From: a bacterium
GTDB lineage: Bacteria > Campylobacterota > Campylobacteria > Campylobacterales > Sulfurimonadaceae
Assembly (NCBI GenBank): GCA_018822665.1
Contig: JAHJJX010000009.1
Span: forward strand, 1-64,000
Direction: 5' to 3'
DNA length: 64,000 nt
Below the pieces are notes generated by a model. It did not search any database. It saw only the letters and a program-made list of their open reading frames with translations, and had not been told where the DNA came from. The position numbers and the translations under genes are program-made. Shown here piece after piece: positions 1,060 to 17,270 of the stretch. Within the stretch, counting starts at the first letter, position 1; every line of letters begins with the position of its first letter.

Positions 1060-1188
1060 CGATATTATAGAGAAATAAAGAAAAAATGGCCAGATTTTTC
1101 TAAAGAATTTTCAAGTCTGCTATAGTAAATAGCATTATTTATTATATTTTTAGTATAATGCATAATAAATATACTCTTGGGGTTGAGA

Positions 1189-1812: not shown

Positions 1813-1824
1813 TAAGGTTTTTAA

Positions 1825-2367
1825 ATGCCTGATAAAACTATTGATAATACTGACTTTCAAGATGAAACCGATGGTAGAAAAGCATATGATTATAAGAGCA
1901 AATATGATTCAACAGCAAGAACTGAAATAAGGTATGAAGCTATATTTTTAATGATTCTACTTTTATTTTCAATATTCATCCTTTTTTATACTTGGAAAGG
2001 TGGTATATACTCTTTTCTGGATATTGGTGCCTCCCAAGAACTTATAGCAAAAAAATATATTTACTACTCAGCTGCTGGAATGCTAGGTGGAATAATCTTT
2101 GGGATGAAATTTTTTTATCGTGCAGTAGCTAGAGGCTTATGGCACCAGGATAGGCGAGTATGGAGACTATTATCTCCTTTGATTTCTGCAATAGTTGCTC
2201 TTATAACCGGTGTTCTTATTGATGCAAGCTTATTAAAGACAGAAGAAGTGACAAGTGGAGCGGCAATTGTGTCCATAGGTTTTTTAGCTGGTTATTTTGC
2301 TGATGAAGCTGTTGGTAAAATGTATGAAATAGCGAATGTTATTTTTGGAGCTAATAAAAACAAGTAA
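1825..2367 (+). CDS. small membrane protein of the HIT/MazG unit
   Basis: This 180-residue protein has a charged soluble N-terminus of about 45 residues and then hydrophobic stretches near 47-65, 88-105, 118-138 and 147-160, consistent with four membrane spans. No enzyme motif is visible and I do not recognise the family. It begins 12 bases after the HIT gene (TAAGG ribosome site), and its last 32 bases overlap the start of the next gene, so the three genes are almost certainly co-transcribed and translationally coupled. Membrane proteins paired with nucleotide-processing enzymes are common in abortive-infection and effector systems; assigning that role here is inference. Confidence 0.75.
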   Translation: MPDKTIDNTDFQDETDGRKAYDYKSKYDSTARTEIRYEAIFLMILLLFSIFILFYTWKGGIYSFLDIGASQELIAKKYIYYSAAGMLGGIIFGMKFFYRAVARGLWHQDRRVWRLLSPLISAIVALITGVLIDASLLKTEEVTSGAAIVSIGFLAGYFADEAVGKMYEIANVIFGANKNK

Positions 2368-4936
2368 GGATATTAAAATAGAAGAAAATTTATTTAAACC
2401 CATACATAATATCATATATGTAACTAATAAATCTATTGACACCCTACATCCTGATGATATTACAATAGACTTTGTTGGTGAAAAAGCTTTTGGTTTATCA
2501 TGCATACCAGAAAATTGGACACTTCCTTTCATTGTTGTTTCTGATACCTTTATCAAAGAAGGGGAAGTCTTATCTGAAGCTTGGACAAAAAATATTTACA
2601 ATGCCTTAAATTTATTAAATATATCTGACGATGATGATATCATAGTGAGATCTTCAAGTACTACTGAGGGCTTAAATGATAGAGGTGAATTGTATTCATT
2701 CCCTGGCAAAGTAAATAATTTAAATAACCTCTTAAGTAAATGTTTTCAAAAAATATCATCTGACAATTCAATTAAAAATCATAAACTACCATTAATAATA
2801 CAAAAATATATAGTTGCACATAGTGAAAAAGGTCATCTTTCTAATGAACGGAGACTAAATAAAGATAAAAGAGATTGGAAATATGAATTAGAAGGAATAA
2901 AACACTTTAATAAAGGCTATTCCGCTCTTTCTATTAGAACCTGGCGAAAAGAATTTGATATAGATAAATATAAAAAGAATACATTATTTTGTAATGTATT
3001 TGAGAATCTAAAGGAAATATTGAAAATACCAGCTAGTTGGATTACTGACAAGAGGTTAAGAATACATTTTGAATGGGTATGGGATGGGACAAATATATAC
3101 CTTGTCCAAGCTGATGAAGAGTGTAATAAAGAAGGTATCAAACCAACAGATATTAGTAATTATAACGAATTAACAGATTTCAATCCTCAAGTTTTAATTA
3201 AAATCAACCAAGAATATGCTGAAAAGTATTCTAAAATAAAAAATGTACTTATATATCAAAAATTAAACCTACCAATTGCTCCACTATATATCCTTGATAA
3301 TATTGAAATAATAAAACAATTGGCAGAAGAAACTATATCAGAAGATTTACATGATGATATTAAAGCGTTAATGCAAAGTTCTTTAATTATTAGGATGGAT
3401 GTTGATACAAACTCTAAAATTATTAGACAATCATTACCAAGAAAAGAATTTTATGATTTAACAACCGCTTTAAATTGGTTAATAAAACAATGTGTCAAAA
3501 TCAAAGAGGAAGGATTAGAAGATAAAATAATTTTTATCTTTCATAATTTTATTCCAGCTATTTCTTCTGCATTTGCATATGCATCTCCAAATGAAAGAAA
3601 AGTTCAAATTGAAGCACTATGGGGTCTGCCGGAAGGCTTATATTTTAATGCACATGATAAATATATAGTAGATACAAAAAATACGGAAAATATTGATAAT
3701 TTCGATATTCACAGAAAAATAATATATAAACATTATTTAGTTTCTGCAGATGCGGATGGGAACTGGTCTACTAATGTTCTTCAAGCACCATTTGATTGGA
3801 AAGATTCGGTAGGAAATGATAAATGGCTTAAACAAATAGCTTTAGACTCCAAAAGGATAGCTATTGAAGAAAATAAATCATTAAGTATTATGTGGTTCGT
3901 TAATGTACCAAAAGAAGTATGCATTACTCAAGTCTTTCCTTGGCACCATGAAGATATTGACCTAAACACAACCAATATGACACATAAATATCGCAAAAAA
4001 ACTCACCATGATAGGTCATTTACAATCTACACTAATGATGATTTAGAATATCTGAGAAATGAAGCTAAAAATGAAATCTCTTCTATAACGCGTATTCATA
4101 TTCAGCCAAAAGAAGATAGTTTGCTTAGAAATAAACATATCTTACAGGAAATAGGTGAGTTAAGTAAAAAGATTGATGCAGTTATCGTGTTAGAAGGGGG
4201 GACATTGTCTCATGCTTATTATCAATTAATGAAAACGGATGCAATTATAGAACTATCTCATTCATTTGGTGATTTTGAAGATAAGCAGGAGTTTAATAAA
4301 TTAGTTAGGGATAAAATTCCTGAGAATATAGAAAGTGGCGGCGAAGTTGTAAATACGGCTAAATTAACCAAAATCTCCATGCTTCGTGCATTAAAAGATA
4401 AATTAATAGAGGAAGCATTTGAAGTGTTTGATTCAGATGAAGATTCATTGTTAGGAGAACTTGCAGATGTAAGTGAAGTCATTGATGGGATTTTACATCA
4501 TTTAAATATTGATAAAAAAGAATTACTAGAAAAACAAAAACAAAAATATGAAAAAGTAGGTGGATTTAAAGAAGGGCTTATTTTATTAGATACTGAAAAC
4601 CCTATACCGACACTAAAAGAAGATGTACCTAATTCACTATTTAAAGATGATATATATCATGAACATTCAAGTATAGATTATGAAGATTTACCAACAAAAA
4701 AAATTCATTCATACAAGGATAAACGAGAGTTAATTGGTGAAGATGAAAATCTTATTAGACTAACGATACCAATGACACAAGATTCTTGGAATACTACAGT
4801 GATGGATTTAGATTTATCTAAAAAACAAAAAACAAAATTACAACTATCCGGTAAAAGAATCGATTCATCATATCAAGTAGAACTTTCTGTTTTTACCAAA
4901 AAAGAAAATAAGCAATTAGTTATAGAGTTTGAATAG
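2336..4936 (+). CDS. tandem PEP-synthase-like ATP-binding protein fused to a MazG-like NTP pyrophosphohydrolase
   Basis: The 866-residue protein is multi-domain. Residues of about 40-270 resemble the ATP-grasp domain of PEP synthase/pyruvate phosphate dikinase (GEKAFGLS, VRSSSTTEG, a FPGKVNN stretch, and a final LVQADEE). Residues of about 300-560 look like a second, diverged copy (IIRMD, FIPAISSAFAYASP, EALWGLPEG). Residues of about 650-760 form a MazG/phosphoribosyl-ATP pyrophosphohydrolase-like module (KLVRDKIPE, then EEAFE and ELADVSEVID acidic helices that bind magnesium). The last 100 residues are unassigned. The phosphohistidine swivel and TIM-barrel domains of true PEP synthase are absent, so this is not central metabolism. 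The ATG at 2336 overlaps the previous gene by 32 bases. An anti-phage or nucleotide-signal function is inferred from domain make-up and location. Confidence 0.7.
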   Translation: MLFLELIKTSKDIKIEENLFKPIHNIIYVTNKSIDTLHPDDITIDFVGEKAFGLSCIPENWTLPFIVVSDTFIKEGEVLSEAWTKNIYNALNLLNISDDDDIIVRSSSTTEGLNDRGELYSFPGKVNNLNNLLSKCFQKISSDNSIKNHKLPLIIQKYIVAHSEKGHLSNERRLNKDKRDWKYELEGIKHFNKGYSALSIRTWRKEFDIDKYKKNTLFCNVFENLKEILKIPASWITDKRLRIHFEWVWDGTNIYLVQADEECNKEGIKPTDISNYNELTDFNPQVLIKINQEYAEKYSKIKNVLIYQKLNLPIAPLYILDNIEIIKQLAEETISEDLHDDIKALMQSSLIIRMDVDTNSKIIRQSLPRKEFYDLTTALNWLIKQCVKIKEEGLEDKIIFIFHNFIPAISSAFAYASPNERKVQIEALWGLPEGLYFNAHDKYIVDTKNTENIDNFDIHRKIIYKHYLVSADADGNWSTNVLQAPFDWKDSVGNDKWLKQIALDSKRIAIEENKSLSIMWFVNVPKEVCITQVFPWHHEDIDLNTTNMTHKYRKKTHHDRSFTIYTNDDLEYLRNEAKNEISSITRIHIQPKEDSLLRNKHILQEIGELSKKIDAVIVLEGGTLSHAYYQLMKTDAIIELSHSFGDFEDKQEFNKLVRDKIPENIESGGEVVNTAKLTKISMLRALKDKLIEEAFEVFDSDEDSLLGELADVSEVIDGILHHLNIDKKELLEKQKQKYEKVGGFKEGLILLDTENPIPTLKEDVPNSLFKDDIYHEHSSIDYEDLPTKKIHSYKDKRELIGEDENLIRLTIPMTQDSWNTTVMDLDLSKKQKTKLQLSGKRIDSSYQVELSVFTKKENKQLVIEFE

Positions 4937-5326
4937 TTATATTTCTTTAGTACCATTAATCAGCTTTAACTCTCTATATTTCGCTAAAAGGAGCAGTCCT
5001 GAACCAATAATAAAAAATATTCCAACAATATAGCTAATTATTTCAGTTTGGTTAGATGTCATTTTAAAACTAGTATCATCCTCTGCTTTTGTGTATTCTC
5101 TAAATGAAATAGGATTTGTCCAAATATTTACTTCTGTTACTTCAGGGTGTAGTTTTTGATAGTTGGAAATACTCGCATTATATATCATATCAATCTTTTT
5201 TTCAATTTTATAACGAATAGAATTATTGGTAATCGTTGAAGATAAATTCAGTAAAAATAATTGTGAAAATGAGGAAATCAATATTAATATTAAACCGGTT
5301 AATTCCAATCGTTTGATAATTTTCAT
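4937..5326 (-). CDS. small two-span membrane protein, unknown
   Basis: This 129-residue protein has a hydrophobic segment near residues 11-30 and another near 97-115, with a hydrophilic loop of about 65 residues between them. No catalytic motif or recognised family. It converges on the large MazG-fusion gene with no spare bases: that gene's TAG ends at 4936 and this gene's stop begins at 4937. It may be an unrelated accessory gene or the fourth member of the neighbouring system read from the other strand; the sequence does not decide. Confidence 0.55.
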   Translation of the reverse strand: MKIIKRLELTGLILILISSFSQLFLLNLSSTITNNSIRYKIEKKIDMIYNASISNYQKLHPEVTEVNIWTNPISFREYTKAEDDTSFKMTSNQTEIISYIVGIFFIIGSGLLLLAKYRELKLINGTKEI

Positions 5327-5469
5327 ATCAATATCCCCACTCTACTAAATACATTCTAACACTATACAGTAAAGTTAATTAAAATTATTTTTTCAAAATA
5401 TATCCATTTTATCAGTAATCTCAACAAAAATACTAAAAACTCCTATAAATAAAATAAAAAGGAGTTCTC

Positions 5470-5519
5470 ATGAACAAATCCGATTTAATCAATCAAGTAA
5501 GCCAATCAACAGGTCAATC
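5470..5519 (+). pseudogene. 5' remnant of an HU-type DNA-binding protein gene
   Basis: A good ribosome site (AAGGAG) is followed by an ATG and 17 codons, MNKSDLINQVSQSTGQS, which match the usual N-terminus of HU/IHF-type histone-like proteins. The frame stops matching at about 5520, where the IS21-family element begins. The remaining ~75 residues of an HU protein are found nowhere in the window, so the gene was cut by insertion and its 3' part lost. The ribosome site can pair with an upstream AACTCC at 5438-5443. Confidence 0.6.
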
Positions 5520-5526
5520 TGTACGC

Positions 5527-5614
5527 GCGCATCTCATTTGGCCACCCCGCGCATTTGCATTTGGCCAGCTGACGCATCAACACTTGGCCACCTCGCGCAT
5601 TGATTATTTGGCCG
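5527..5614 (+). repeat. four direct repeats at the IS21 left end
   Basis: Four imperfect repeats with the pattern GCGCAT or CGCAT, 6-7 bases, then TTGGCC(A) start at 5527, 5549, 5573 and 5595, spaced 22-24 bases apart. IS21-family elements are known to carry multiple terminal repeats bound by IstA, which fits their position between the element tip and istA. Confidence 0.7.
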
Positions 5615-5697
5615 GCTAAATGAGTGTGATGCGCGGCTAAGCTAGAGTTAAGTTAAAGAATATTCTTCACTATAATACACCTAAAAAGGTGTGATAA

Positions 5698-7287
5698 ATG
5701 AGGAAAGTATGTATGAGTAAAATCAAAGAGGTGTTAAGATTAAAATATCTTAACCAACTATCCAACAGACAGATTCAATCTATCACTGGAGTATCACGAA
5801 ACAGTGTTGCCAACTATGTAAAAAGTTTCATAGAACTATCCGCTCCACTTGAAGATGTACTCGAACTAAAAGAGACAGATTTAGAACAGCTATTCCATCC
5901 AAATAAACCGACACACACCACTAAGCAAGTCAAACTAGCCCTTATTCACCCAGATTGGAATCATGTAAGAGAAGAGCTTACTAAAAAAGGGATGACGAGG
6001 GCTCTACTGTATGAAGAGTATAAAAGTGCCCAACCAGATTTATATAGCTATAGCCAGTTTAATCGTTATTATGCAAAATTCTTAAAGAGTGTTAATCCAT
6101 CTATGCGTCAAGTACATTATGCGGGTAACAAACTCTTTATCGACTATAGCGGACTAACAATGCCCATAGTAGACCAAAAAACAGGAGAGATATCAAAAGC
6201 TCAAATATTTGTATGCGTTTTAGGAGCAAGTGGATACACATTTGTTCACGCCACACCTTCACAGAGCACCAAAGATTTCATCAATTCTCATGTCTTAGCC
6301 TTTAGTTTTTATGGTGGTGTTCCAAATATCTTAGTACCTGACAATCTAAAAGCAGCAGTCATCTCTCATAAAAAAGGAGTTGTAAAACTCAATGAAAGTT
6401 ATGCGGATATGGCAAGACACTATGGCGTTGCAATAGAGCCGGCACGCCCCTATAAACCACAGGACAAATCTAAAGTTGAACTAGGTGTAAAAGCCATACA
6501 GCGATGGATACTGATGAAACTGCGTCATCATACCTTCTTTAGCGTAGATGAACTTAACCAGCAGATAAACTTACTTCTTGATGGCTACAACAATAAAGTC
6601 ATACGAAGATTAGGTAAAAGTAGAACAGAGTTGTTTGAGATGCTTGACAGGCCTTTACTGCATCCGCTCAGAGCAAACAACTACATCTATAAAGAGTTTA
6701 AAACTGCCACAGTAGGAATGGATTATCATGTGGAACTTGATGGCAGTGGTTATTCGGTTCCTTATAAATATCTCGGTAAAAAAGTAGATGTGACATACTC
6801 CTCAACCTCTCTTACCATTGCATTTGGAGGAGAAGTCATAGCACACCACCCAAAACTCTCAAAACCCTATCATGATTCGACGCTACTAGAGCATATGCCC
6901 AAAGAGCATGAGTACCAGCATGAGAAGTGGAATCCAAGAAGAATACTTGGTTGGGCAAATACAATAGGTGCCAATACAACAGCGCTTGTCCAAAGTATTA
7001 TGGACAAGCGCTCTCATCAGGTCAGAGGATATAAATCTTGTATGGCTATTCTTAGTTTTTCAAAAACATACGGTGCTGATGCACTAGAGATGGCATCACA
7101 AGCAGCATATGAATTAAACATTCATAAAGTTGCATCTATAGAATCAATGCTAAAAACAAAAAGTTATTTGCTTCATAACCCACAAACCAGTGCAAATAAT
7201 AATATATTTCTCAACAACCATAAAAACATCAGAGGCAGTGAGTATTACTCACAGATAGACAATAAAAATACAAAGGCAAAAATATAA
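5698..7287 (+). CDS. istA: IS21-family transposase IstA
   Basis: The 529-residue transposase has an N-terminal helix-turn-helix (LSNRQIQSITGVSRNSVANY, about residues 21-40). The DDE/RNase-H-fold catalytic core is residues 125-300: GNKLFIDYSG with the first Asp, VPDNLKAAV with the second Asp, and KPQDKSKVELGVK with the Glu. Length matches IstA. A second in-frame ATG at 5713 follows a better ribosome site (GAGGAAAG) and may be the real start. It ends on the first base of the istB start codon, the usual coupling in this family. The catalytic residues look intact, but the element lacks a working IstB and a right end. Confidence 0.92.
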   Translation: MRKVCMSKIKEVLRLKYLNQLSNRQIQSITGVSRNSVANYVKSFIELSAPLEDVLELKETDLEQLFHPNKPTHTTKQVKLALIHPDWNHVREELTKKGMTRALLYEEYKSAQPDLYSYSQFNRYYAKFLKSVNPSMRQVHYAGNKLFIDYSGLTMPIVDQKTGEISKAQIFVCVLGASGYTFVHATPSQSTKDFINSHVLAFSFYGGVPNILVPDNLKAAVISHKKGVVKLNESYADMARHYGVAIEPARPYKPQDKSKVELGVKAIQRWILMKLRHHTFFSVDELNQQINLLLDGYNNKVIRRLGKSRTELFEMLDRPLLHPLRANNYIYKEFKTATVGMDYHVELDGSGYSVPYKYLGKKVDVTYSSTSLTIAFGGEVIAHHPKLSKPYHDSTLLEHMPKEHEYQHEKWNPRRILGWANTIGANTTALVQSIMDKRSHQVRGYKSCMAILSFSKTYGADALEMASQAAYELNIHKVASIESMLKTKSYLLHNPQTSANNNIFLNNHKNIRGSEYYSQIDNKNTKAKI

Positions 7288-7637
7288 TGATTACAACATC
7301 AACACTACTAGAGCAAACCACAGCACTGAGTCTCTCAGGTTTTAAACAATCACTCCTGCTCCAATCCGAAGATACAAAGTATCACTCGCTCTCATTCGAA
7401 GAAAGGCTCTTTCATCTCTTTGAAGCAGAGATAAACCAAAGACAGGATAAACGAATCAAACGGATGCTCACGCAAGCTAATTTCAAAGATAAGACTGCTT
7501 CACTCGAACAGATACAATATCTTCCAAAAAGAAAGCTAGATAAGTCACTGATTCTCTCTTTAGCCAATGGAGACTTTATCAACAAAAATCAAAATATTCT
7601 TCTCAACGGTGCTACAGGTACAGGTTATGTAAAGTAA
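7287..7637 (+). pseudogene. istB: istB ATPase, truncated at the Walker A motif
   Basis: About 112 residues of a normal IstB helper ATPase (usually about 250) are present: the N-terminal LSFEERLFHLFEAE region and the start of the P-loop, GATGTG. The invariant Lys and everything after it are replaced by Y-V-K-stop, encoded by the start of the next element. AAA+ activity is therefore lost. Confidence 0.88.
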
Positions 7638-7704
7638 ATTGATATGTAAAGTTTTTGGCAATAGTCCCATAAATCGGTTCTTCTTGCTTTAAAAACTTTA
7701 CATA
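7626..7704. repeat. recombinase-type repeat cluster at the tyrosine-recombinase element's end
   Basis: TATGTAAAGT occurs at 7626-7635 and again at 7643-7652, 17 bases apart. The second copy extends to TATGTAAAGTTTTT (7643-7656) and is matched by a perfect inverted copy, AAAAACTTTACATA, at 7691-7704. The cluster starts exactly where istB is interrupted and just precedes the recombinase genes, so it probably marks the element tip and recombinase binding sites. Confidence 0.55.
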
Positions 7705-7772
7705 TATTTTTCAACATAGATTCTATAATGAACTGCCTAGCAATTGCTAGAGTATGTATCAAAGGATTTATT

Positions 7773-9035
7773 GTGGAAGCAAAACAAAGAGTTATAGAGG
7801 TTAAAGACCTTATCGACCAAACACTTCAGTCTATGTTGAATATTGGATATTCAGAGAAATATCTTAAGCAGTTTAGATACTCATATAAACTATTTTTGGA
7901 GTATTCACTAAAAAATAGTTGTCAATATTACAATGAAAAACTCGCACTGACATTTTTAGAAGAATACTGTAGTATCTTCTCTAATAAAGATGTGCAAAAA
8001 AACACTTATAAAAAAAGAAAAAATGCTATATCTAAACTTGATGAAATGCATAAATATAATAACATAAGTTCAAGAAAGCAGTTTTCCAGAAAAAAGTATC
8101 AATTTTATGGGGCTTTACAAAGCAGTATAGAAAAATATCTAATCTTCAAAGCAACTATTGTATCAGAAGCCAGAATAAGATCAATAAAACTATATCTTGA
8201 AAGATTTAGTCTATTTATTTCAAAGATAGATACAATTAAACAAGTCACAGATTTAACAAATGAACATATAATCAAATTTATTGAGTCTTGTTCAATTTAT
8301 AGCGATCATACAATTTATGCCACAGTTACATCTGTACGTCAATACATTGCTTACCTTGAAAAGAATGAGTACATTCGAGAAAAGTTATCTGCAAGAATCC
8401 CTAAAATAGCTAAAAAAAGAGAAAAATCTTATCCCAGTGCTTTTACAAAAGATGAAACAGAAGCACTCTTAAATAGCATAAAAAGAGAGAACCCTAAAGA
8501 GCGAAGAGATTATGCTATGTTGCTTTTAGCTGCAAGGATCGGATTAAGAGCTTCCGATATTGCTAATTTAGAGTTTAGAAATATTGATTGGGATAGGAAT
8601 CAAATAAATATAGTGCAACAAAAAACCAAGACACCGCTTACTCTTCCACTACTAAATGATGTTGGTAAAGCGATTATTGATTATATAAAAAATGGTAGAC
8701 CAAAAGTTGATGAACCACATATCTTTATTAGAGAAAACAAACCCTACATAAAAATAAATGGATCTTCTTTACATATGATAGTTGATGAATATTTAAAACG
8801 TGCAAATATAAAAGTACCAATAGGTAAGAAACATGGCCCACATGCTTTAAGACACTCTATTGCAACACTTCTACTTGAAAATAACATTCCAATATCCACC
8901 ATTAAAGAGATTTTAGCACATAAAAGCAGTGAGACCACAAAAGTCTATCTCAAAGTTGCTCAAAAGCAATTGCTTGAATGTGCTTTAGATGTTGATTTTT
9001 CAGCTAATAATGGAGATAAATCATGTATTCAATGA
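7773..9035 (+). CDS. tyrosine recombinase, first of a tandem pair (RIT/Tn554-like)
   Basis: This protein has an N-terminal SAM-like core-binding region and a C-terminal tyrosine recombinase domain. The catalytic set is visible: Arg in AARIGLRASDIANL, Lys in QQKTKTPLTL, H-x-x-R in HALRHSIATLL, His in LAHKSS and the nucleophile Tyr in TKVYLKVA. I prefer the GTG at 7773, 6 bases after AAAGGA, over the upstream ATG at 7728, which lacks a ribosome site. It overlaps the next recombinase gene by 13 bases. Back-to-back recombinases of this kind occur in RIT (recombinase in trio) and Tn554-like elements; here the second is broken and no third is seen. Confidence 0.85.
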   Translation: MEAKQRVIEVKDLIDQTLQSMLNIGYSEKYLKQFRYSYKLFLEYSLKNSCQYYNEKLALTFLEEYCSIFSNKDVQKNTYKKRKNAISKLDEMHKYNNISSRKQFSRKKYQFYGALQSSIEKYLIFKATIVSEARIRSIKLYLERFSLFISKIDTIKQVTDLTNEHIIKFIESCSIYSDHTIYATVTSVRQYIAYLEKNEYIREKLSARIPKIAKKREKSYPSAFTKDETEALLNSIKRENPKERRDYAMLLLAARIGLRASDIANLEFRNIDWDRNQINIVQQKTKTPLTLPLLNDVGKAIIDYIKNGRPKVDEPHIFIRENKPYIKINGSSLHMIVDEYLKRANIKVPIGKKHGPHALRHSIATLLLENNIPISTIKEILAHKSSETTKVYLKVAQKQLLECALDVDFSANNGDKSCIQ

Positions 9036-9524
9036 ATCTAAATTATAAACTACTTATAGATGATTTTTTAAAATTTAAACGATCTTGTGGATATAAATAT
9101 ATATGTGAGCAAACTACGCTCAGAGCCTTTTATATTTATACGACAGATAACTCAGATTCAAAACTTGGTCTTAGTAAAAGTTTTTTAGAAAAGTGGAGTA
9201 TGCCCAATGTCAAAGAGTCTAGAAAAAGCTTATCAAATAGAGTAAGCGTAATTAGAGAATTTAGTATCTACTTGAATCAGGTAGGGTATAAAACATATGT
9301 CCTAAAAGCTATTAAAAATAGCACAAACAAATCTTTTATTCCTTATGTTTTTACACGTGTACAAATGAAGCAAATTTTTACAATAATAGACACTTGGCCA
9401 AAATCTAGTAGAAATAGCTATAACAGTAATGAAGTGTACCCTATACTATTTCGTCTACTATATGGATGTGGATTGAGAATATCTGAAACTTTAAATTTGA
9501 AAATAAATAATGTTGACACTGAGA
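9023..9524 (+). pseudogene. second tyrosine recombinase, truncated by an IS3-family element
   Basis: About 167 residues remain, starting at an ATG after GGAGATAAATC. The core-binding domain and the first catalytic Arg (LLYGCGLRISETLNL) are present, but the frame runs into the IS3-family terminal repeat at 9525 and ends at 9529. The H-x-x-R and Tyr parts are absent from the window, so it is inactive. Confidence 0.85.
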
Positions 9525-9592
9525 TGTAAGCCTCCCCAAAAACTGTACCACTGAAAACGGAATAATTCTGATAAAATAAATCAGGAGTATTC

Positions 9593-9859
9593 ATGCGAAG
9601 AAGTAAGTTTAGCGAGAAGCAAATCATAGAGATTTTAAAAGAGATAGAAGATGGTGCACCAGTTGTTGAGACCTTGCGAGCTAAGGGTGTAAGTAAAGAC
9701 ACATACTACAAGTGGAAACGTAAATACAGTGGTATGGAAACTGGTGATGTAAAACGCATGCGAGAACTAGAAAAAGAGAATGCCAAACTTAAAAAGCTTT
9801 ATGCAGAGATGGCATTGATAAATGATGCACTTAAAGATGTCATTGAAAAAAAGCTCTAA
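9593..9859 (+). CDS. IS3-family OrfA
   Basis: This 88-residue protein has the IS3 OrfA layout: a helix-turn-helix (FSEKQIIEILKEI... then GVSKDTYYKWKRKY) followed by a leucine-zipper-like coiled coil (about residues 50-75, RELEKENAKLKKL). It binds the terminal repeats and is normally also made as a fusion with OrfB by ribosomal frameshifting at the A-run near its 3' end. Confidence 0.92.
   Translation: MRRSKFSEKQIIEILKEIEDGAPVVETLRAKGVSKDTYYKWKRKYSGMETGDVKRMRELEKENAKLKKLYAEMALINDALKDVIEKKL
9847..9853 (+). other. -1 programmed frameshift heptamer A AAA AAG
   Basis: In the orfA frame the codons read GAA AAA AAG, so the heptamer A AAA AAG sits just before the orfA stop at 9857. The orfB frame is open from 9847 onward, so a -1 slip here would fuse OrfA to OrfB. 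This is the standard way IS3-family elements make active transposase. Confidence 0.75.
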
Positions 9860-9909
9860 AGCCTGATGATAAACGAGAGCTCGTAAAATATGTAGTTCAG
9901 CATTGTTCT

Positions 9910-10695
9910 TTGAGTATCAATCAGGCTTGCCAAGCACTCATTTTAAGTAAATCATCATACTACTATGAGAAAAAGTTCAAAGATGATGGAGTCATTATTG
10001 ATGCTCTAAACACACTTATTGAAGAACATCCAAGGAACGGTTTCTGGCTGCTATTTAATCGTTTGAGGAAGCGTGGATTGCATTGGAATCATAAACGGGT
10101 ATATCGAGTCTACAAGGCACTAGGACTTAATTTTAAAAAGAGAACAAAGAAAAGAATTCCAGCAAGAGTACAACATCCGCTACAAGAGCTGTTTGAACCC
10201 AATGAGCAGTGGTCTATGGATTTTATGTCTAATACTCTTTTTGGTGGTAAGCGCTACCGTATCCTAAATATCATGGATGAATTTAATCGTGAGTTTATAG
10301 AGTTTGAGGTTGGAGTTTCATTACCTGCAATAAAAGTCATACAAGCACTACAACGAGCAGTGGAGTTTCGAGGTAAACCAAAATCTATACGAGTAGATAA
10401 TGGGCCGGAGTTTATCTCTCATAAACTTGAACAGTGGTGTTATATTCATTCGATTGAGTTAAAATTTATTCAACCTGGATCTCCAACTCAAAATTCTCGA
10501 ATGGAGAGACTTAATGGATCTATGAGAAGAGAGTTTTTCGATGCTTATCTGTTTGACACATTATCTGAAGTAAAAATAATGACCCAAGAGTGGGTCTATG
10601 ACTATAATAACTATAGACCTCACTCAATTTTAGGAAAATTAAGTCCTATTGAATATTTAGATAAGTACAATTTAGAGAAGAATTATTCCGTTTAA
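9910..10695 (+). CDS. IS3-family OrfB (DDE transposase catalytic part)
   Basis: The 261-residue frame carries the integrase-type core: first Asp in EQWSMDFMS, second in RVDNGPEFIS, and Glu in NSRMERLNGSMRREF, followed by the conserved YNNYRPHSILG. The nominal start is a TTG at 9910, but the open frame extends upstream to 9847 and the active product is expected to be the OrfAB fusion. All three catalytic acids are present, so the element may still be mobile. Confidence 0.92.
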   Translation: MSINQACQALILSKSSYYYEKKFKDDGVIIDALNTLIEEHPRNGFWLLFNRLRKRGLHWNHKRVYRVYKALGLNFKKRTKKRIPARVQHPLQELFEPNEQWSMDFMSNTLFGGKRYRILNIMDEFNREFIEFEVGVSLPAIKVIQALQRAVEFRGKPKSIRVDNGPEFISHKLEQWCYIHSIELKFIQPGSPTQNSRMERLNGSMRREFFDAYLFDTLSEVKIMTQEWVYDYNNYRPHSILGKLSPIEYLDKYNLEKNYSV

Positions 10696-10723
10696 GCTGG
10701 TTCTAGTTTAGGGGAGGCTTACA

Positions 10724-11022
10724 ATAGAGGAAGCCAATATGCATCCTATGAGCATAAAGATTTACTACAAAAACATGGGATTATACAAAGCATGAGCAGA
10801 AAAGGAAATTGCTGGGACAATGCAGTAGCAGAAAGCTTTTTTCATTCCTTAAAAACTGAACTTGTTTACCATGAAATATTTGAAACCAGAGCACAAGCAA
10901 ATCAAAAGATATTTGAATACATTGAAGTGTTTTACAATAGACAAAGAATGCACTCATCCAATGGTAATCTCTCACCGGTTGAGTATGAAGAAAAAATGTT
11001 ACTTAGAGAAACGGCTGCTTAG
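10724..11022 (+). pseudogene. C-terminal fragment of a second IS3-family transposase
   Basis: Directly after the intact element the frame reads R-G-S-Q-Y-A-S and continues through [27 protein letters not shown] and LSPVEYE to a TAG at 11020-11022. This is the last ~98 residues of an IS3/IS150-type OrfB, beginning inside the HSDRGSQ motif. The N-terminal two thirds, with the first catalytic Asp, are missing. It differs in sequence from the intact neighbour, so it is a different IS. Confidence 0.85.
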
Positions 11023-11058
11023 AATGTTGTATTCTGAGTATGATATAGGGTTGACAGA

Positions 11059-12492
11059 TCAATTACTATCATCTTTAAAATCCTTTTTGATTTTTTCAAT
11101 AAATGCAACAATTTCTTCAGTAGGTGAAGTAAAATTTATAGGAACTAGAAATGTATTCTTATCTATAAGATGCAAATTAAATGTTTGTCTAATAACACTC
11201 ACATCAAATACGTCATCTCCTTCAAATACTCCCATACTAATAGTATAATCATCAAACTGTTTCTCTTCATACCTATATTTAAGTTCTTGCTGATTACTTG
11301 GATACCACCTCATTTTTTTAGGATCAATTGAATTATGGGTAATTCGTTGCATTAATATTCTGCTTGATTCAGGTGTCACAATTTTATTATCTTTTGGAAC
11401 AATAAGATATGCTTTTCGCAACTCATCTTCAAAATCGTCAATCATACTATTAATGTTATAAATGCCAGTAGATATGTAATACTGGTGTACTTGTATAGAT
11501 AAGAAATTTGGAAACCTAGAGTGTAGCTTTTGTATAGCGCTTTCCTTATACTCTGTATTTGTCATGAATTGAAAATTTTTTTTGAGATATTTTAAATACT
11601 TTAATGCATAAAGTATCTTTTTTACCACTTCGTTTCTAATAGCCATCTCATAAGCCAAAGAATAAGTATGCTTATATGGAATTTCAATATTTTTATAGAT
11701 TTGATCATCTCTACTTGGCATTCTTAATATTTCACATTCTTCAGAATATGATTGAATTAACATATTTTTCAAGCTATCATACTCTAGCTGAAACTTTTTC
11801 TTTTTATCCTCAGCAAGATATGTATCTAATGTACTATTGGGAGATAATTTAAATGGATTTTCATATTCCATAATAGATTTTTTTGGAGTAAATCTTCCTT
11901 CCTGGAATGTTAGAATAATAAACTTCTTGTGAGACTGATTTTTCTGCAACACCATTTTAGGTCTAATTTGTTCATCCACTAAACGAGAGAAGCTTTCTTC
12001 ATCACGCTCGTGAATATTCACTAATTGATCTTTTTTTAAATCTTTAGGTATTTGAAGCATATTGTGCTTCCATCTGATAGTAGTGCTTATAGTGTTCTTT
12101 CTAGGTATAGTGTTATATTTTCTATCATGTTCAATATCAAAATGAAGCCATACTTCTATATTCTTTAATGCCTGTTTATATCTAAATCTTTGATTACGTT
12201 TTATAGATTCTTTACGTAATAGGTGCGCAATAGAACTTCTGCTTAGAATATTAAACTCTTTTCTACATTGCTCACATTTAAATTTATAAAGATGTGACTG
12301 TGCATCCATCTTATAAAAGTCTTGAGAATTACAGTAGGGACAATGAGACATATAGCCCAATGCCTGATTTAATTCTTCTTGAGTGCAATTGTTACTTATG
12401 TAGTTGATTAACTGTTGAACTTGTTTGTTTGTAAGTTTATAAAATGAAGGTTTATTTTTATAGAATTGACTAATATGAAGTTTATTACTCAT
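11059..12492 (-). CDS. unknown protein with an N-terminal zinc ribbon
   Basis: This 477-residue protein has two C-x-x-C pairs near residues 52-55 (CPYC) and 73-76 (CEQCRKEF), the spacing of the zinc ribbon found at the N-terminus of some IS1595-type transposases. The rest (residues 90-477) shows no DDE motif I can identify, is rich in K, Y, I and N, and I do not recognise it. It is read leftward, with its promoter gap next to the tRNA-Ser repeat. Its position between IS debris and an integration site suggests it is cargo or a degenerate transposition protein. Confidence 0.6.
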   Translation of the reverse strand: MSNKLHISQFYKNKPSFYKLTNKQVQQLINYISNNCTQEELNQALGYMSHCPYCNSQDFYKMDAQSHLYKFKCEQCRKEFNILSRSSIAHLLRKESIKRNQRFRYKQALKNIEVWLHFDIEHDRKYNTIPRKNTISTTIRWKHNMLQIPKDLKKDQLVNIHERDEESFSRLVDEQIRPKMVLQKNQSHKKFIILTFQEGRFTPKKSIMEYENPFKLSPNSTLDTYLAEDKKKKFQLEYDSLKNMLIQSYSEECEILRMPSRDDQIYKNIEIPYKHTYSLAYEMAIRNEVVKKILYALKYLKYLKKNFQFMTNTEYKESAIQKLHSRFPNFLSIQVHQYYISTGIYNINSMIDDFEDELRKAYLIVPKDNKIVTPESSRILMQRITHNSIDPKKMRWYPSNQQELKYRYEEKQFDDYTISMGVFEGDDVFDVSVIRQTFNLHLIDKNTFLVPINFTSPTEEIVAFIEKIKKDFKDDSN

Positions 12493-12613
12493 TTATTATG
12501 TATCGTAAAATATTAATAAACATTTTCTCTCCGTTATTTGAAGTGATTATAACATTATTAGTGATTTTTTTAATAAATTGTATAAGTTTTAAAACGTATT
12601 CAGAATGTAAAAG

Positions 12614-12635
12614 TGAGACCTAAGATGAGACCTAA
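12614..12635. repeat. 12-bp-spaced direct repeat TGAGACCTAA
   Basis: TGAGACCTAA occurs at 12614-12623 and 12626-12635, 12 bases apart, just outside the left tRNA repeat. The spacing equals that of the arm-type repeats at the two ends of the adjacent integrated element, but the sequence differs. It may be an arm site of another, older element lying to the left. Confidence 0.4.
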
Positions 12636-12678
12636 TGATTTCTTAAAGCTTGAAAGTATTTGTTTTAGGGGATTTGAA

Positions 12679-12759
12679 TGGTGGACCCTCAGAGATTCGA
12701 ACTCTGGGAGGTATAACCCTCGCCGGTTTTCAAGACCGGTGCATTCGACCAACTCTGCC
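12679..12759 (-). repeat. left attachment repeat: 81-bp copy of the tRNA-Ser 3' portion
   Basis: This stretch is identical over 81 bases to 17182-17262, the 3' part of the intact tRNA-Ser gene including the CCA end. The copy lacks the 5' acceptor strand (the intact gene has GGATCTTT, replaced here by unrelated bases), so it cannot fold as a full tRNA. It is the att site made when the element integrated. Confidence 0.92.
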
Positions 12760-12796
12760 CCAAAAGTACGCTGTTTTTATCCGCTTTGATAAAAAA

Positions 12797-12816
12797 GGTA
12801 CACAAAAAGGTACACA
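12797..12816. repeat. left arm-type integrase sites
   Basis: GGTACACA occurs at 12797-12804 and 12809-12816, 12 bases apart. The same octamer, with the same spacing, recurs at 17040-17059 near the other end. Paired direct repeats flanking the core att site are typical tyrosine-integrase arm sites. They overlap the first codons of the longest reading of the integrase frame, which supports a downstream start for that gene. Confidence 0.65.
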
Positions 12817-12824
12817 TCGACTTT

Positions 12825-14060
12825 ATGAGTTCACCTAAAAGGGCACTCATGCAAATCCAATATCTAACTCAAAATAGCAGTGGTATATACACCTATAGAA
12901 GAAGAACTCCCACTGAGCTACAAGAGATTCTTCAAAAAGACACGATAAAAGTTTCTATTGGCAAAGATTTATCTTTAGCTATCTCCAAGACAAACCAATT
13001 CACACAAGCCATTCAGCAGTCTATACAAGTTCTTCAAATGCAAACGCAGTCTAAGGACAAAAACGAACTCATAAAGAACATCTTAGAGCCTATTGGCTTT
13101 AAAACATCTATTAAAGAAGTTGTTACACCTCTTTGGGAGCTTATATGTAAAGATTATCTAAAATCTGTTGATGTTTCAGCAGATGAACTTAGAGATAGAA
13201 GTTATTTTTTCTTTACCATAGCCCCTATAATCTTTAAAGCTGTCCTTAAAATTGATAATCCAAATATAAATGAGATAAGCTTTAATAATATTTTAGATTT
13301 TCAACACCTCATCGCTACATTGCCAAAAAGAAACATTCAAAAGTATAGAGATATGAACTTTTCACTTTTAGTATTAGGCATCAAGCAGAACAAAATCAGC
13401 ATCAAAGATGATGAACTTCTCTCAACCCGTACCAAAAACAAATATATCAAATGGCTCAAAGCTATATTCAGCTTTGCAGATGTTAGAGATTTAATAACAA
13501 AAAATGTTACAAAGTCTATAGTCTTAAAAAATACAACCAAACAAAGAGAAGAACGAGAAGCACTCAGCAAAGATGAGCTCAAAATATTATTTACTGCAAT
13601 TCAAAATAATGAAATTTCATACCTTTTTAGAATTTTACAACTAACTGGCATGAGACGCTCAGAGCTCTATAAGTGTTCTATCAAGCATTATGACGGTGTG
13701 GCATGTTTCGACCTCTCAGCGAGCTCCGAGAAGCTTAAAACAGCCAGTTCATACAGATTGATTCCTATCCATTCAAGCCTTTTGGCGGATATTGAGAAGT
13801 TTGAAGCTATCAGAAAAAAATATAGTGGCAATTATCTCAGTCAGTATTTTGCAAGATTAATTAAACTCACTTTAGATGAAGCAGAAAATAAATCGCTCTA
13901 TTCTCTTCGTCATACATTCGCAACTCAGCTTATAGCAAAAAGTGTTGCTCCTGAAATTGTAAGTGAGTTAATGGGTCATGCTCACGCAACGATGACAATG
14001 AGCAGATATGTCAAAAGTTACCCCGTTGAGATTTTGAGGGAGGCGGTTGAGAAATTGTAG
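12825..14060 (+). CDS. int: tyrosine integrase of the tRNA-Ser element
   Basis: The protein (411 residues from the ATG at 12825) has an N-terminal arm-binding segment, a SAM-like core-binding domain and a C-terminal recombinase domain. Catalytic residues visible are Arg in LTGMRRSELYK, Arg/His in YSLRHTFATQL, His in LMGHAH and Tyr in MSRYVKSYP. The frame is open from 12786, but those codons cover the arm-type repeats, so 12825 or 12849 is more likely. The first position of the usual H-x-x-R box is Tyr rather than His, a variation seen in active enzymes. It integrates the element into, and probably excises it from, the tRNA-Ser gene. Confidence 0.9.
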   Translation: MSSPKRALMQIQYLTQNSSGIYTYRRRTPTELQEILQKDTIKVSIGKDLSLAISKTNQFTQAIQQSIQVLQMQTQSKDKNELIKNILEPIGFKTSIKEVVTPLWELICKDYLKSVDVSADELRDRSYFFFTIAPIIFKAVLKIDNPNINEISFNNILDFQHLIATLPKRNIQKYRDMNFSLLVLGIKQNKISIKDDELLSTRTKNKYIKWLKAIFSFADVRDLITKNVTKSIVLKNTTKQREEREALSKDELKILFTAIQNNEISYLFRILQLTGMRRSELYKCSIKHYDGVACFDLSASSEKLKTASSYRLIPIHSSLLADIEKFEAIRKKYSGNYLSQYFARLIKLTLDEAENKSLYSLRHTFATQLIAKSVAPEIVSELMGHAHATMTMSRYVKSYPVEILREAVEKL

Positions 14061-14164
14061 GTAACCAATCATAACAATTGTGGTTATGGTAAATTAAGCT
14101 AAAGGTATGTACAATCAGAAGCATATTATCATTATAATAGAAAACTTATATTTTAGGAAACAAA

Positions 14165-14929
14165 ATGTCACAAATTGGAAAAATTACAAGTTTGGATACA
14201 AATAATGGCACAGGAACAATAATCCTTGAAAGTGGAGATACTAAAGATTTTAGCATGAAGGATTGGATTGATTTTAATAAGATGCCTGAATATGGATTGA
14301 AAGTTCAAATAAATGATGAGTATAAGTTATTTGCAGTTCAAGAAGAAGTCAAAATCCAAGAAAATGATTCGAGTAACTATAAAGAACGAGCAGAGCAATT
14401 TATAATAAAGTATATTAAAGATGGTTGGAAACTAGAATACAATAATGGCACTTCATTTTCAATGTCACGAAAACAAAATATTAATATTTTGAAATTGCTA
14501 TTTCATACTTTTTGGATATCAATTATATTAATTATGATTTTTGGTCCATCTGGAATTATAGTCGCCTTAGTTATCGTGGTAATGATAACAATGAATAATT
14601 CTTCTGATGTTCTAGTAAGTAGCTATGATAAAGACAGAAACAAAATTCTTATAACTATCAATAATGAAACGCCCTTTGTTATTCAAGACAAGTTTGAGCT
14701 AGATAAGAAAAAAGCAGATAAATATCATAAAAATGGTGGTTTTAATGAATTATTTCATAAAGAGTTGTTAGATAAAGGCTATCAAATAGAAAGCAACATT
14801 GAATTATCTAAGCAAATTGGGCCATTGGTAGTTGATAGATATACTACAATAATGGACTATGATAACTACTTATTCCTTGTTGTTGATAAAGCAGGGAATA
14901 AAGTTGATAGTTTTAAGTATGAGTTTTAG
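14165..14929 (+). CDS. cargo protein with cold-shock-like N-terminus and membrane pair, unknown
   Basis: This 254-residue protein begins GKITSLDTNNGTGTI, which looks like the first strands of a cold-shock/OB fold, though the RNA-binding aromatic residues are not obvious. Residues of about 110-145 form one or two hydrophobic spans. The remainder is hydrophilic with no motif I recognise. It has a good ribosome site (AGGAAA) and sits alone between the integrase and the polymerase-like gene. As the only apparent cargo it could provide defence, exclusion or a fitness trait; nothing in the sequence shows which. Confidence 0.55.
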   Translation: MSQIGKITSLDTNNGTGTIILESGDTKDFSMKDWIDFNKMPEYGLKVQINDEYKLFAVQEEVKIQENDSSNYKERAEQFIIKYIKDGWKLEYNNGTSFSMSRKQNINILKLLFHTFWISIILIMIFGPSGIIVALVIVVMITMNNSSDVLVSSYDKDRNKILITINNETPFVIQDKFELDKKKADKYHKNGGFNELFHKELLDKGYQIESNIELSKQIGPLVVDRYTTIMDYDNYLFLVVDKAGNKVDSFKYEF

Positions 14930-15128
14930 AAATTATATAGTCATTAATGATTGTTTAATATACTTCTCTGCTCCTATGCAAAGAATGAGAGTACAGATTA
15001 CAGTCATCTTTTCAAATACATGACGTACGGGTGTTTTAGTAAGTAAGTCGGCAGAAAAGCCGCAAAACAGATTTAAAGCATACTTATACTAAGCTATGAG
15101 CGTGTTTTAAAAATATAGTCGTATCTTG

Positions 15129-16742
15129 CTAAAGTATTTCTTCTTCATACTTCACCATAAGCCCTAGCTCTTGCTCAATTGTTCGCTCAAGGTTATGATA
15201 ATCTAAGCTTTGCTCAATTATGAATCCATCATGCACAAGTAATAATATATTTGGAAACTGTCGTATTGCTATGTTTAAAATTTGTCGCTCATGATAGAAA
15301 TAAATCTCAGACAATACAGAGGCTTTACTTCTTTTTATTTTTTTGCCTTTTGTATCTAGCTTTTTTTTATATGGGTCTATTTTAATGCTGTCATATAAAA
15401 TATTTCCACCTGCATCTATATTTTTTGCAATGACTTCGTAAAGCTTATCAAACATTTCTTTGGCTTCCTCTGCAAGTGCTTTGAACCCTGTATTATTTTG
15501 CATGAGAGATACTCTTGTTGTGTAAAACATTTCTACATTGCTTTGCTTATTGAGTGGATTTCCTCCGTAAAATATTGCCGTAATAAGCTCTTTCACATCG
15601 GTTTTAGCCTTGTTAAAATCTTTGTAAGCCTCTGCATGGTTTCTTAAAAGATGGTTCGCACAATCGCCTCTGAGACTATTCCTATCGGCTATATAAGCTT
15701 TAATCGCAGGGAGTTTCTTCTTGTCACATAGCTTTTCGTAAAGCTGATGCAATATAGTAGGTGCAGCGGCTGTCAAGTCATACTGATAAAACCCCGTAAA
15801 GAGTTTTTTGCGCGTTTCCTTTAGAAGTCCTTGTAGTAGTGGTGCAGTGTTAATTTTTGCTGTAGCATAAAGGCGATGTTTTTTTTCTTCATAGAATAGA
15901 TAATTGCTATTGCCTGAGTAATGTATTTTTATCGCACATAATATATAAGCATCAAGTCCAACGGCGGCTGCCAACATTTTGTCAAGCTCTATGTTGTTGA
16001 TGCGGATATGTGTGTTGATAGTCTCTTTTCGTTGTTTCGCAGTTGGAATCTTTGGCTTATAGGGTTGCGTTTTACCCAGTCGCTTTACCTCAAAGGTATA
16101 TATTTTTTTATCTTCTGGGAGGTCTCGTATTTGCCTAGCCGATAATCCATGTTCGTAATAGCTGAGGTCTTGCTTGTTTGTGAGTAAAACGGATGATTGA
16201 GCTGTTTTATCTATAAAAGCGTATTGAGCTTCTTGAACTCCAACTTTGTCTATAAAATTCTTAAAAAAAATTTTATCCAATATTGTTGATGTTTTAAAAG
16301 GAACCGAACATACTTTTATTTTCTGAGGATTTACAAGGTTAATTTTTAATGGTTTAAAGCAGTTTTTTTGTCCTAGCTTTTCAATGAGTAGCACTTGAGC
16401 ATCTAAAATAAATTGTTTCAAGAAAATATAGGTTTTATGTTCCATTATTTTTCTTTTATCACGCTCATGGTTAGCTATAAAAAAGCTGTTTATATAGCTT
16501 TTGTAATGTTCGGCACTTCCAAACTCAGCAAACTCTTTTTTAGATATTGGAATGTATATATGCGGATTAGTATCATCATGTTTAAATTTACTTGTAATGA
16601 GAAAGTCGAGCAGCTGTAAAAATTGCCCTAAGCCGTTAAACTCATGGTGCGTTTTTGCTTGAAGAAATGGCAGATGTTGATGCAAAAATAATATGAGTTC
16701 CCCGTTTTGTAATGTAACCCAATTGTTGACCGTTTTTGCCAA
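15129..16742 (-). CDS. putative replication protein with family A/T7-RNA-polymerase-like palm motifs
   Basis: The 537-residue protein carries three motifs in the order of single-subunit polymerases: motif A near residue 320 (YQYDLTAAAPTIL, with the metal-binding Asp), a motif B-like helix near 385-395 (DVKELITAIFYGGN, matching the Lys...Tyr-Gly pattern of family A enzymes), and motif C near 502 (LLVHDGFIIE, with the second Asp after His). I see no exonuclease domain. I infer a nucleotide polymerase, probably the element's replication or primer-synthesis protein. It is read toward the cargo gene, away from the hairpin region at 16812. Exact family and template preference cannot be read by eye. 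Confidence 0.6.
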   Translation of the reverse strand: MAKTVNNWVTLQNGELILFLHQHLPFLQAKTHHEFNGLGQFLQLLDFLITSKFKHDDTNPHIYIPISKKEFAEFGSAEHYKSYINSFFIANHERDKRKIMEHKTYIFLKQFILDAQVLLIEKLGQKNCFKPLKINLVNPQKIKVCSVPFKTSTILDKIFFKNFIDKVGVQEAQYAFIDKTAQSSVLLTNKQDLSYYEHGLSARQIRDLPEDKKIYTFEVKRLGKTQPYKPKIPTAKQRKETINTHIRINNIELDKMLAAAVGLDAYILCAIKIHYSGNSNYLFYEEKKHRLYATAKINTAPLLQGLLKETRKKLFTGFYQYDLTAAAPTILHQLYEKLCDKKKLPAIKAYIADRNSLRGDCANHLLRNHAEAYKDFNKAKTDVKELITAIFYGGNPLNKQSNVEMFYTTRVSLMQNNTGFKALAEEAKEMFDKLYEVIAKNIDAGGNILYDSIKIDPYKKKLDTKGKKIKRSKASVLSEIYFYHERQILNIAIRQFPNILLLVHDGFIIEQSLDYHNLERTIEQELGLMVKYEEEIL

Positions 16743-16811
16743 ATCGTCCCCTTTAGTATATATCTATATATGGTATATATTATCATAATATCTCTCTATA
16801 ATATAAGTAAA

Positions 16812-16844
16812 AACAATCTCGTATACCACGTGGGGGAGATTGTT
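16812..16844. other. nested hairpin, possible replication origin
   Basis: AACAATCTC at 16812-16820 pairs perfectly with GAGATTGTT at 16836-16844. The 15-base loop contains the palindrome CCACGTGG (16826-16833). There is no T-tract on either side, so it is a poor terminator. It lies in an AT-rich gap upstream of the polymerase-like gene, as a plasmid or element origin might. Confidence 0.4.
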
Positions 16845-17039
16845 ATAGAAAAAACATATATAAACCCATAGAATAGGAGTTTGAAGCGTACAAAAATTTC
16901 ATCATAATTTAAATCTGTCAGTAAATGACTTATGATTATGTACGTACACGTTGGTAAAAGTGACACATAAACTATAAGGGAGAGAAGAGATATAAATTAC
17001 TTTGGGCTCTAGTTTAACCCACCCCATTAATAAAAAAGA

Positions 17040-17059
17040 GGTACACAAAGAGGTACACA
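17040..17059. repeat. right arm-type integrase sites
   Basis: GGTACACA occurs at 17040-17047 and 17052-17059, 12 bases apart, mirroring the pair at 12797-12816. Together they place integrase-binding arms inside both ends of the element. Confidence 0.65.
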
Positions 17060-17181
17060 AAAACAAGTAAAATGTAAAAATAAATGCTGATTTTGAAGAG
17101 TATTTAATGTGTGTTTTGGTATAATCAGTGACCATAAAGTTGTTGTAAGTATCGTAAAATAAGGAGGTTGTGTAAGATAGG

Positions 17182-17270
17182 TGGTGGACCCTCAGAGATT
17201 CGAACTCTGGGAGGTATAACCCTCGCCGGTTTTCAAGACCGGTGCATTCGACCAACTCTGCCAAAGATCC
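17182..17270 (-). tRNA. tRNA-Ser(UGA)
   Basis: A complete class II tRNA of 89 bases: acceptor GGATCTT pairs with AGGGTCC, the anticodon loop reads CTTGAAA (anticodon UGA), there is a long variable arm, T-loop TTCGAAT and an encoded CCA end. It is the last tRNA of a four-gene leftward cluster and the integration target of the element to its left, which keeps the gene intact. Confidence 0.95.

Follow-up and report, generated by a model that had tools for sequence, protein, structure and literature searches.

A small integrated element at a tRNA-Ser gene in Campylobacterota with a predicted TV-Pol family polymerase

What does a polymerase do in a mobile element that has only two other genes? The question is raised by a 64,000-nucleotide stretch of DNA from a member of the Sulfurimonadaceae (GCA_018822665.1, contig JAHJJX010000009.1, positions 1 to 64,000), here called the window. 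Between two tRNA-Ser repeats the window holds a 4503-bp element (12760-17262) with three genes, and the product of one of them is a protein of 537 aa. We identified this protein by stepwise homology as a TV-Pol. Iyer, Abhiman and Aravind (PMC2579912) defined the TV-Pols in 2008 as small family A polymerases found in transposons and viruses. TV-Pols were predicted at that time to be primase-polymerases, and CCPol-MP is the only branch tested in the cited literature. With three genes and no recognisable helicase, initiator or SSB among them, the element is about the smallest natural setting for asking what a TV-Pol does.

The direct repeats at 12679-12759 and 17182-17262 are 81 bp each and 100% identical, with a spacing of 4503 bp. 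ARAGORN called tRNA-Ser(TGA) at both element ends and, past the right repeat, tRNA-Cys, tRNA-Leu and tRNA-Gly, which gives a Gly-Leu-Cys-Ser array. Since the right tRNA-Ser copy scored 55 bits with Rfam versus 33 bits for the left, we take the right copy (17182-17270, minus strand, in which 17182-17262 is the right attachment repeat) as the working gene and the left attachment repeat (minus strand) as its displaced 3′ part. The outer flank of the left repeat (12604-12678) is collinear with the tRNA-Ser loci of three relatives (L102, L110 and L100), and by this alignment it lay downstream of the tRNA in the ancestral arrangement. To reconstruct the empty site, we joined the two flanks across a single repeat and aligned the result to the congener loci. 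The joined flanks aligned unbroken to L102, L100 and L110 over 555, 526 and 558 columns, respectively, at 87-91% identity, and these alignments extend 37 to 75 bp past the tRNA 3′ end. Because the joined flanks correspond to an unbroken site in the relatives, 12760-17262 is an insertion relative to the empty site, and this comparison is the strongest evidence of insertion that the sequences offer.

Three sizeable ORFs lie between the repeats, for an integrase (plus strand), a protein of 254 aa (plus strand) and the protein of 537 aa (minus strand). An integrase, direct repeats over a tRNA 3′ end and an empty site in relatives, the marks of an integrative element, were thus all found. The first-pass annotation had described a 4.5-kb element within identical 81-bp tRNA repeats, which the repeats and the empty sites bear out. 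It had listed only an integrase, one cargo gene and a 537-residue protein, in agreement with the ORF content.

The tyrosine integrase (12786-14060, plus strand, 424 aa) has a DUF6538 N-terminal domain and matches Pfam PF00589 at 3e-12, PF20172 at 9e-7 and a PHROG integrase family at 2e-35. Its relatives, 30-46% identical, are found in other Campylobacterota islands. One of them, matching at E 5e-86, lies in an island of 9.6 kb in genome G006 (L125) that has inserted at the same tRNA-Ser. Small elements with related integrases and no polymerase also exist, so mobility needs no polymerase activity. Beside the integrase start lie two tandem 12-bp direct repeats, AAAAAGGTACAC x2 (12792-12816, an exact tandem repeat), and a second tandem pair, AAAGAGGTACAC, lies at the tRNA end of the element (17035-17058). 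Tandem repeats with GGTACAC near both element ends compare with a chance expectation of none. In genome G010, a related integrase that shares this tRNA-Ser site has a similar pair, GGTACACACAAGGGTACAC, next to it (L127). These repeats are probably arm-type integrase-binding sites.

The cargo gene (14165-14929, plus strand) lies on the strand opposite to the polymerase gene. Its 254-aa protein has an N-terminal module of ~60 aa, a hydrophobic segment that is likely a membrane segment, and a C-terminus without family. No family match to it was found in Pfam, PHROG, NCBIfam or PADLOC. The N-terminal module is common to chromosomal proteins of the genus (28-37% identity). We had considered the protein as an SSB partner resembling MP; since its N-terminal module is also in chromosomal proteins, it was treated as cargo. 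The largest noncoding stretch of the element (16743-17181) is upstream of the polymerase gene and has no notable ORF. It contains an inverted repeat (16812-16820/16836-16844) and is a candidate regulatory or origin region. A repeat search of the element showed no clear iterons.

In the collection searched, the window-type element was found in one of 135 genomes of the genus. Most congeners searched have the same tRNA array, and in several of them the tRNA 3′ end recurs as an incomplete second copy several kb away. From these comparisons the tRNA-Ser site is an insertion hotspot. Three other islands of the genus (L125 in G006, L126 in G012 and L127 in G010) use the same tRNA-Ser 3′ end as the window element; they are 7 to 17 kb in size and have no TV-Pol, whereas the integrases of L125 and L127 are related to that of the window. 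The 7-kb island in L126 (G012:C1:1783500-1792500, 639-7669) encodes a Rep3 initiator, a RepB-type primase, a different integrase and a 730-aa protein without known family, and it is an apparent integrating plasmid. The Rep3 initiator and RepB-type primase indicate that small replicons use the tRNA-Ser site, which in this genus therefore also hosts integrating replicons whose primase is entirely different. In L124 (G029:C16:9800-19500), three copies of the tRNA-Ser 3′ end are spaced by about 3.8-3.9 kb, apparently as two tandem small islands; these islands gave neither a window-like integrase nor a TV-Pol match. Another small element (L035, G010:C9:74000-88000, 3061-7197) lies between two copies of a tRNA-Met/tRNA-Asn pair separated by about 4 kb, and its related integrase is interrupted by a stop codon.

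The window has further features to the left of the element. Two overlapping tyrosine recombinase genes (7728-9035 and 9023-9529, plus strand) are followed immediately downstream by IS3-type ORFs (9593-10695), and the second recombinase is seemingly truncated at the start of the IS3-type insertion. The layout is suggestive of recombinase-trio (RIT) elements. Just left of the element, a 477-aa protein (11059-12492, minus strand) has an N-terminal zinc ribbon (Pfam Zn_ribbon_8 at 4e-4, below the family cut-off) and matches no other family.

The gene for the 537-aa protein (15129-16742, minus strand) starts with TTG, downstream of an AAGGGG ribosome-binding site. The protein matched no family in Pfam, PHROG, NCBIfam or PADLOC. 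Searches with its sequence alone were without result against the PDB (phmmer), plasmids and phages (tblastn) and viral contigs, and a profile search of PDB sequences retrieved no polymerase. Weak tblastn matches in 399 genomes of the order were judged to be chance, the proteins being MBOAT-, RNase R- and Lrp-like by eye, and on visual inspection a motif match in L006 belonged to MurG. Alignments with artificially varied copies of the query, made to broaden the peptide patterns, gave empty scans and were excluded from all conclusions.

Since no library recognised the protein, we took the Microcystis phage Ma-LMM01 as a stepping stone. According to Iyer et al. (PMC2579912), a TV-Pol element is present in this phage. 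Its protein MAP_030 has the same three motifs as the 537-aa protein and is the only match to the TV profile within Ma-LMM01; we infer that it is the gene meant by Iyer et al. MAP_030 led to a protein of the Polaromonas plasmid pH8NP1 (PHROG link, 1e-5), which aligned with the 537-aa protein across the entire catalytic core (BLASTP E 1e-7, 25% identity). More members were found on plasmid pW9NP1, in a Comamonadaceae MAG, on virus-like contigs and in L063 of the same order, the last being the one clear distant TV-Pol in a profile search of 397 genomes sampled across the phylum. A profile of eight plasmid, phage and MAG relatives, with the window protein left out, found the 537-aa protein at 7e-23 (about 1e-22). 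With L063 left out as well, hmmsearch found it at 1.8e-18 as the sole match among the 78 window ORFs. Identity to the relatives found is about 17-23% over the full length. The homology to a published TV-Pol thus runs via the Polaromonas protein to MAP_030, and a structural match to virophage proteins, described below, is added to it. On this stepwise homology, the 537-aa protein is a TV-Pol.

Two of the relatives have contexts of their own. In L063 (G421:C1:568000-586000, 1302-13329), the region with the TV-Pol, integrase, resolvase and IS genes is surrounded by six palindromic 26-bp repeats (of the ATAGAATTCCAATAATTGGAATTCTA type) and by two large inverted repeats, 778 and 495 bp long; it is a composite of nested mobile elements. 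L054 (IMGVR_UViG_3300020048_001266, 10.9 kb; 3687-4328 and 5232-6698) is a virus-like contig with a TV-Pol and ParA and with genes that are terminase-, capsid- and portal-like by eye. It is possibly a phage-plasmid that replicates with its TV-Pol.

Nine residues are invariant in nine TV-Pols: R290, Y292, Y321, D322, K384, G393, E485, H504 and D505. R290 (15873-15875, minus strand) is the equivalent of the Arg in the Pol I TGR motif, located in the beta-hairpin before the palm; hhalign aligned it with TGRLSS, and the model of a relative has two strands at the hairpin position. D322 (15777-15779, minus strand), in YDLTAAAP, is the catalytic Asp of motif A (Pol I D705). Motif B, VKELITAIFYGG, holds K384 (15591-15593, minus strand; Pol I K758), Y392 and G393, and Y392-G393 match Pol I Y766-G767. 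The spacing of eight residues from K384 to Y392-G393 is equal in PolA and T7 DNA polymerase. H504-D505 (15228-15233, minus strand), in VHDG, form motif C (Pol I H881-D882). The three motifs therefore lie where the first-pass annotation had placed them and its Asp near 322 is D322, but its second Asp, given near 504, is D505, and residue 504 is His. In the RxxxK fingers motif the Lys is the invariant K384, whereas the Arg position is K380 and varies among the relatives. The protein has ~240 additional N-terminal residues, and no family match to a nuclease or helicase domain was found in it with Pfam and PHROG.

The position of Pol I E710, the steric gate, is Ala (A327) in the window protein and in L063, and His in the other relatives. 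The position of Pol I F762 is Thr (T388) in the window protein, and Thr or Leu across the branch. In contrast, CCPol keeps the equivalents of both residues and strongly prefers dNTPs (PMC7581432). The branch of the window protein may therefore select less strongly against ribonucleotides.

Compared with a profile of Campylobacterota PolA, the TV-Pol profile is collinear, starting at the TGR...LQN hairpin and continuing across motifs A and B. The hhalign value was 57% (E 1e-4, score 43.6), while 40 column-shuffled decoys scored at most 21.4 and the reversed profile 17.3. The window sequence alone gave only 0.4% against PolA, and the link to PolA as read from these profiles runs via the family and not via the window sequence by itself. 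The first-pass annotation had proposed a fold search on a predicted structure as a check, to be failed if the fold were unrelated to polymerases or if the two Asp did not cluster in a palm. For the window protein itself the check gave little, since its full-length AlphaFold model was poor (pLDDT 41.5) and yielded no usable match. At the family level it succeeded. We modelled the core of a homologue (L055), with the window protein included in the alignment, and obtained pLDDT 78.4 and pTM 0.76. This core matched Klenow, Pol theta and Taq (Foldseek E 3e-7 and up, probability 1.0) as well as replication proteins of the Zamilon and Qinghai Lake virophages (BFVD); the related protein of virophage Sputnik helped to define the TV-Pols (PMC2579912). 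In the model, motif A closes a strand ahead of a helix, and motif C has its HD in the loop of a strand-strand hairpin, both as in Pol I. The TV-Pol core of the relative is thus modelled as a Klenow palm and fingers fold, with the palm carrying two Asp at the family level.

The earlier proposal of a single-subunit polymerase is upheld by the motifs and by the Pol I-like core of the homologue. It had left the choice between family A and a T7-type RNA polymerase, of which family A stands, via the TV-Pol branch. A T7-type single-subunit RNA polymerase, serving transcription or RNA priming, would have the identical layout of motifs A-C, and the replacement of E710 and F762 by Ala and Thr would give room for ribonucleotide use. 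However, hhalign gave 1.3% for T7 RNA polymerase against 57% for PolA, and the fold matches were to Pol I, Pol theta and TV-Pols; the L055 core reached T7-like RNA polymerases only at E of at least 4e-3 (BFVD). We regard a T7-type enzyme as extremely improbable.

For the function, we consider it probable that this is a site-specific integrative element whose TV-Pol primase-polymerase acts on the excised circle together with the helicase and replicase of the host. The tyrosine integrase would recombine the tRNA-Ser 3′ end, as the repeats and empty sites suggest, and the element would be excised to a circle. The TV-Pol would then prime and extend DNA on this circle or on incoming single-stranded DNA, to judge from the biochemistry of CCPol-MP and from the contexts of the relatives. 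The host would supply helicase and replicase, and the element would be copied before reintegration or transfer. CCPol-MP is a proven primase-polymerase with de novo priming (PMC7581432). In pW9NP1 the TV-Pol gene adjoins that of a RepA_C initiator, and in L054 a TV-Pol occurs together with ParA and phage head genes; such neighbours of Rep or ParA type point to replication. The Rep3 initiator and RepB-type primase of L126, at the same tRNA-Ser, add to this support. On the other side, CCPol needs MP to prime (PMC7581432) and the RepA_C plasmids have their own initiator, while the ORFs and family searches revealed no initiator, helicase or SSB partner for the window element. Together with the lack of clear iterons this counts against a stand-alone replicon. 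If the N-terminal ~240 residues bound an origin of the element itself and the gate-less core started strands de novo with no partner, a 4.5-kb integrating element would copy itself with a single protein; this we hold to be very unlikely.

The main rival to replication on the excised circle is a role in replicative transposition, in which the TV-Pol would support transposition or integration by filling gaps or copying the element during recombination, with no replication of a circle. 'Replicative transposons' were proposed for TV-Pols linked to resolvases or integrases (Iyer et al., PMC2579912). In its favour, neither an initiator nor a helicase nor a clear origin was recognised in the element, and L063, the closest relative within the order, has resolvase, integrase and IS genes as its neighbours and not a Rep gene. 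Tyrosine integrases at tRNA genes, however, are conservative and do not require synthesis, and the plasmid relatives adjoin Rep or ParA genes, so that we think this role unlikely, if worth keeping in view. The polymerase could also be cargo directed at the host, for example in defence or repair, or it could be disused, with the integrase alone spreading the element. Its sporadic and rare occurrence (1/135 genomes of the genus), its high divergence from its relatives (about 20% identity) and the existence of small integrase-only elements would fit. On the other hand, the ORF is intact and retains all catalytic residues, which argues for selection, and for defence there was no PADLOC match. We find cargo or a decayed remnant quite doubtful and continue to favour priming and copying of the excised circle.

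Among known systems, the closest are the TV-Pol elements themselves. TV-Pols have a palm with two Asp, a conserved Arg in a beta-hairpin, an RxxxK motif in the fingers and no fused nuclease, and they are linked either to a D5 helicase or to an N-terminal domain plus a recombinase of the integrase or resolvase type (PMC2579912). The window protein is like those of Brucella and Ma-LMM01 in its family A palm with two Asp, its hairpin Arg and its motif B Lys, and like the second subset in the absence of a nuclease domain, the N-terminal extension and the linked site-specific recombinase. It differs in that the Arg of RxxxK is Lys. The published element of Brucella melitensis (PMC2579912) and the window element are alike in size (~4 kb), in having three genes, a recombinase gene among them, and in their flanking direct repeats. 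Unlike the Brucella element, the window element has a tyrosine integrase at tRNA-Ser in place of a resolvase, a different third gene and a host in the Campylobacterota.

CCPol-MP and the PolA-SSB primases of SCCmec and other Bacillota islands (PMC7581432, PMC10061031) also combine a family A polymerase on an island with a site-specific recombinase, and CCPol is counted among the TV-Pols (PMC7581432, PMC10061031). However, the CCPol operon encodes the SSB-like partner MP and a helicase, neither of which is seen among the three genes of the window element, and CCPol keeps the E710 and F762 equivalents that are A327 and T388 here. Of the OB-fold SSB partner and helicase that characterise PolA-SSB primases, neither was recognised; beside the polymerase the element encodes only an integrase and one cargo protein. 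The Polaromonas plasmids pH8NP1 and pW9NP1, the two RepA_C plasmids in the published set (PMC6015842), carry the closest named TV-Pol homologue. Both exist as free plasmids, encode a RepA_C initiator and ParA, and show no tRNA integration, whereas the window element is integrated. With relatives beside different initiators (RepA_C) and recombinases, the idea of an 'exchangeable primase' would become testable.

The first-pass annotation had suggested a new replicon or satellite class. Among the three ORFs, Pfam and PHROG showed no packaging or helper-interference gene of the kind that marks a phage satellite. TV-Pol elements of ~4 kb with a recombinase and one more gene are already known (PMC2579912), so the window element joins the kind described for Brucella in 2008 and does not found a new class. 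What is new here is an unusually small, tRNA-targeted and very divergent TV-Pol element in Campylobacterota.
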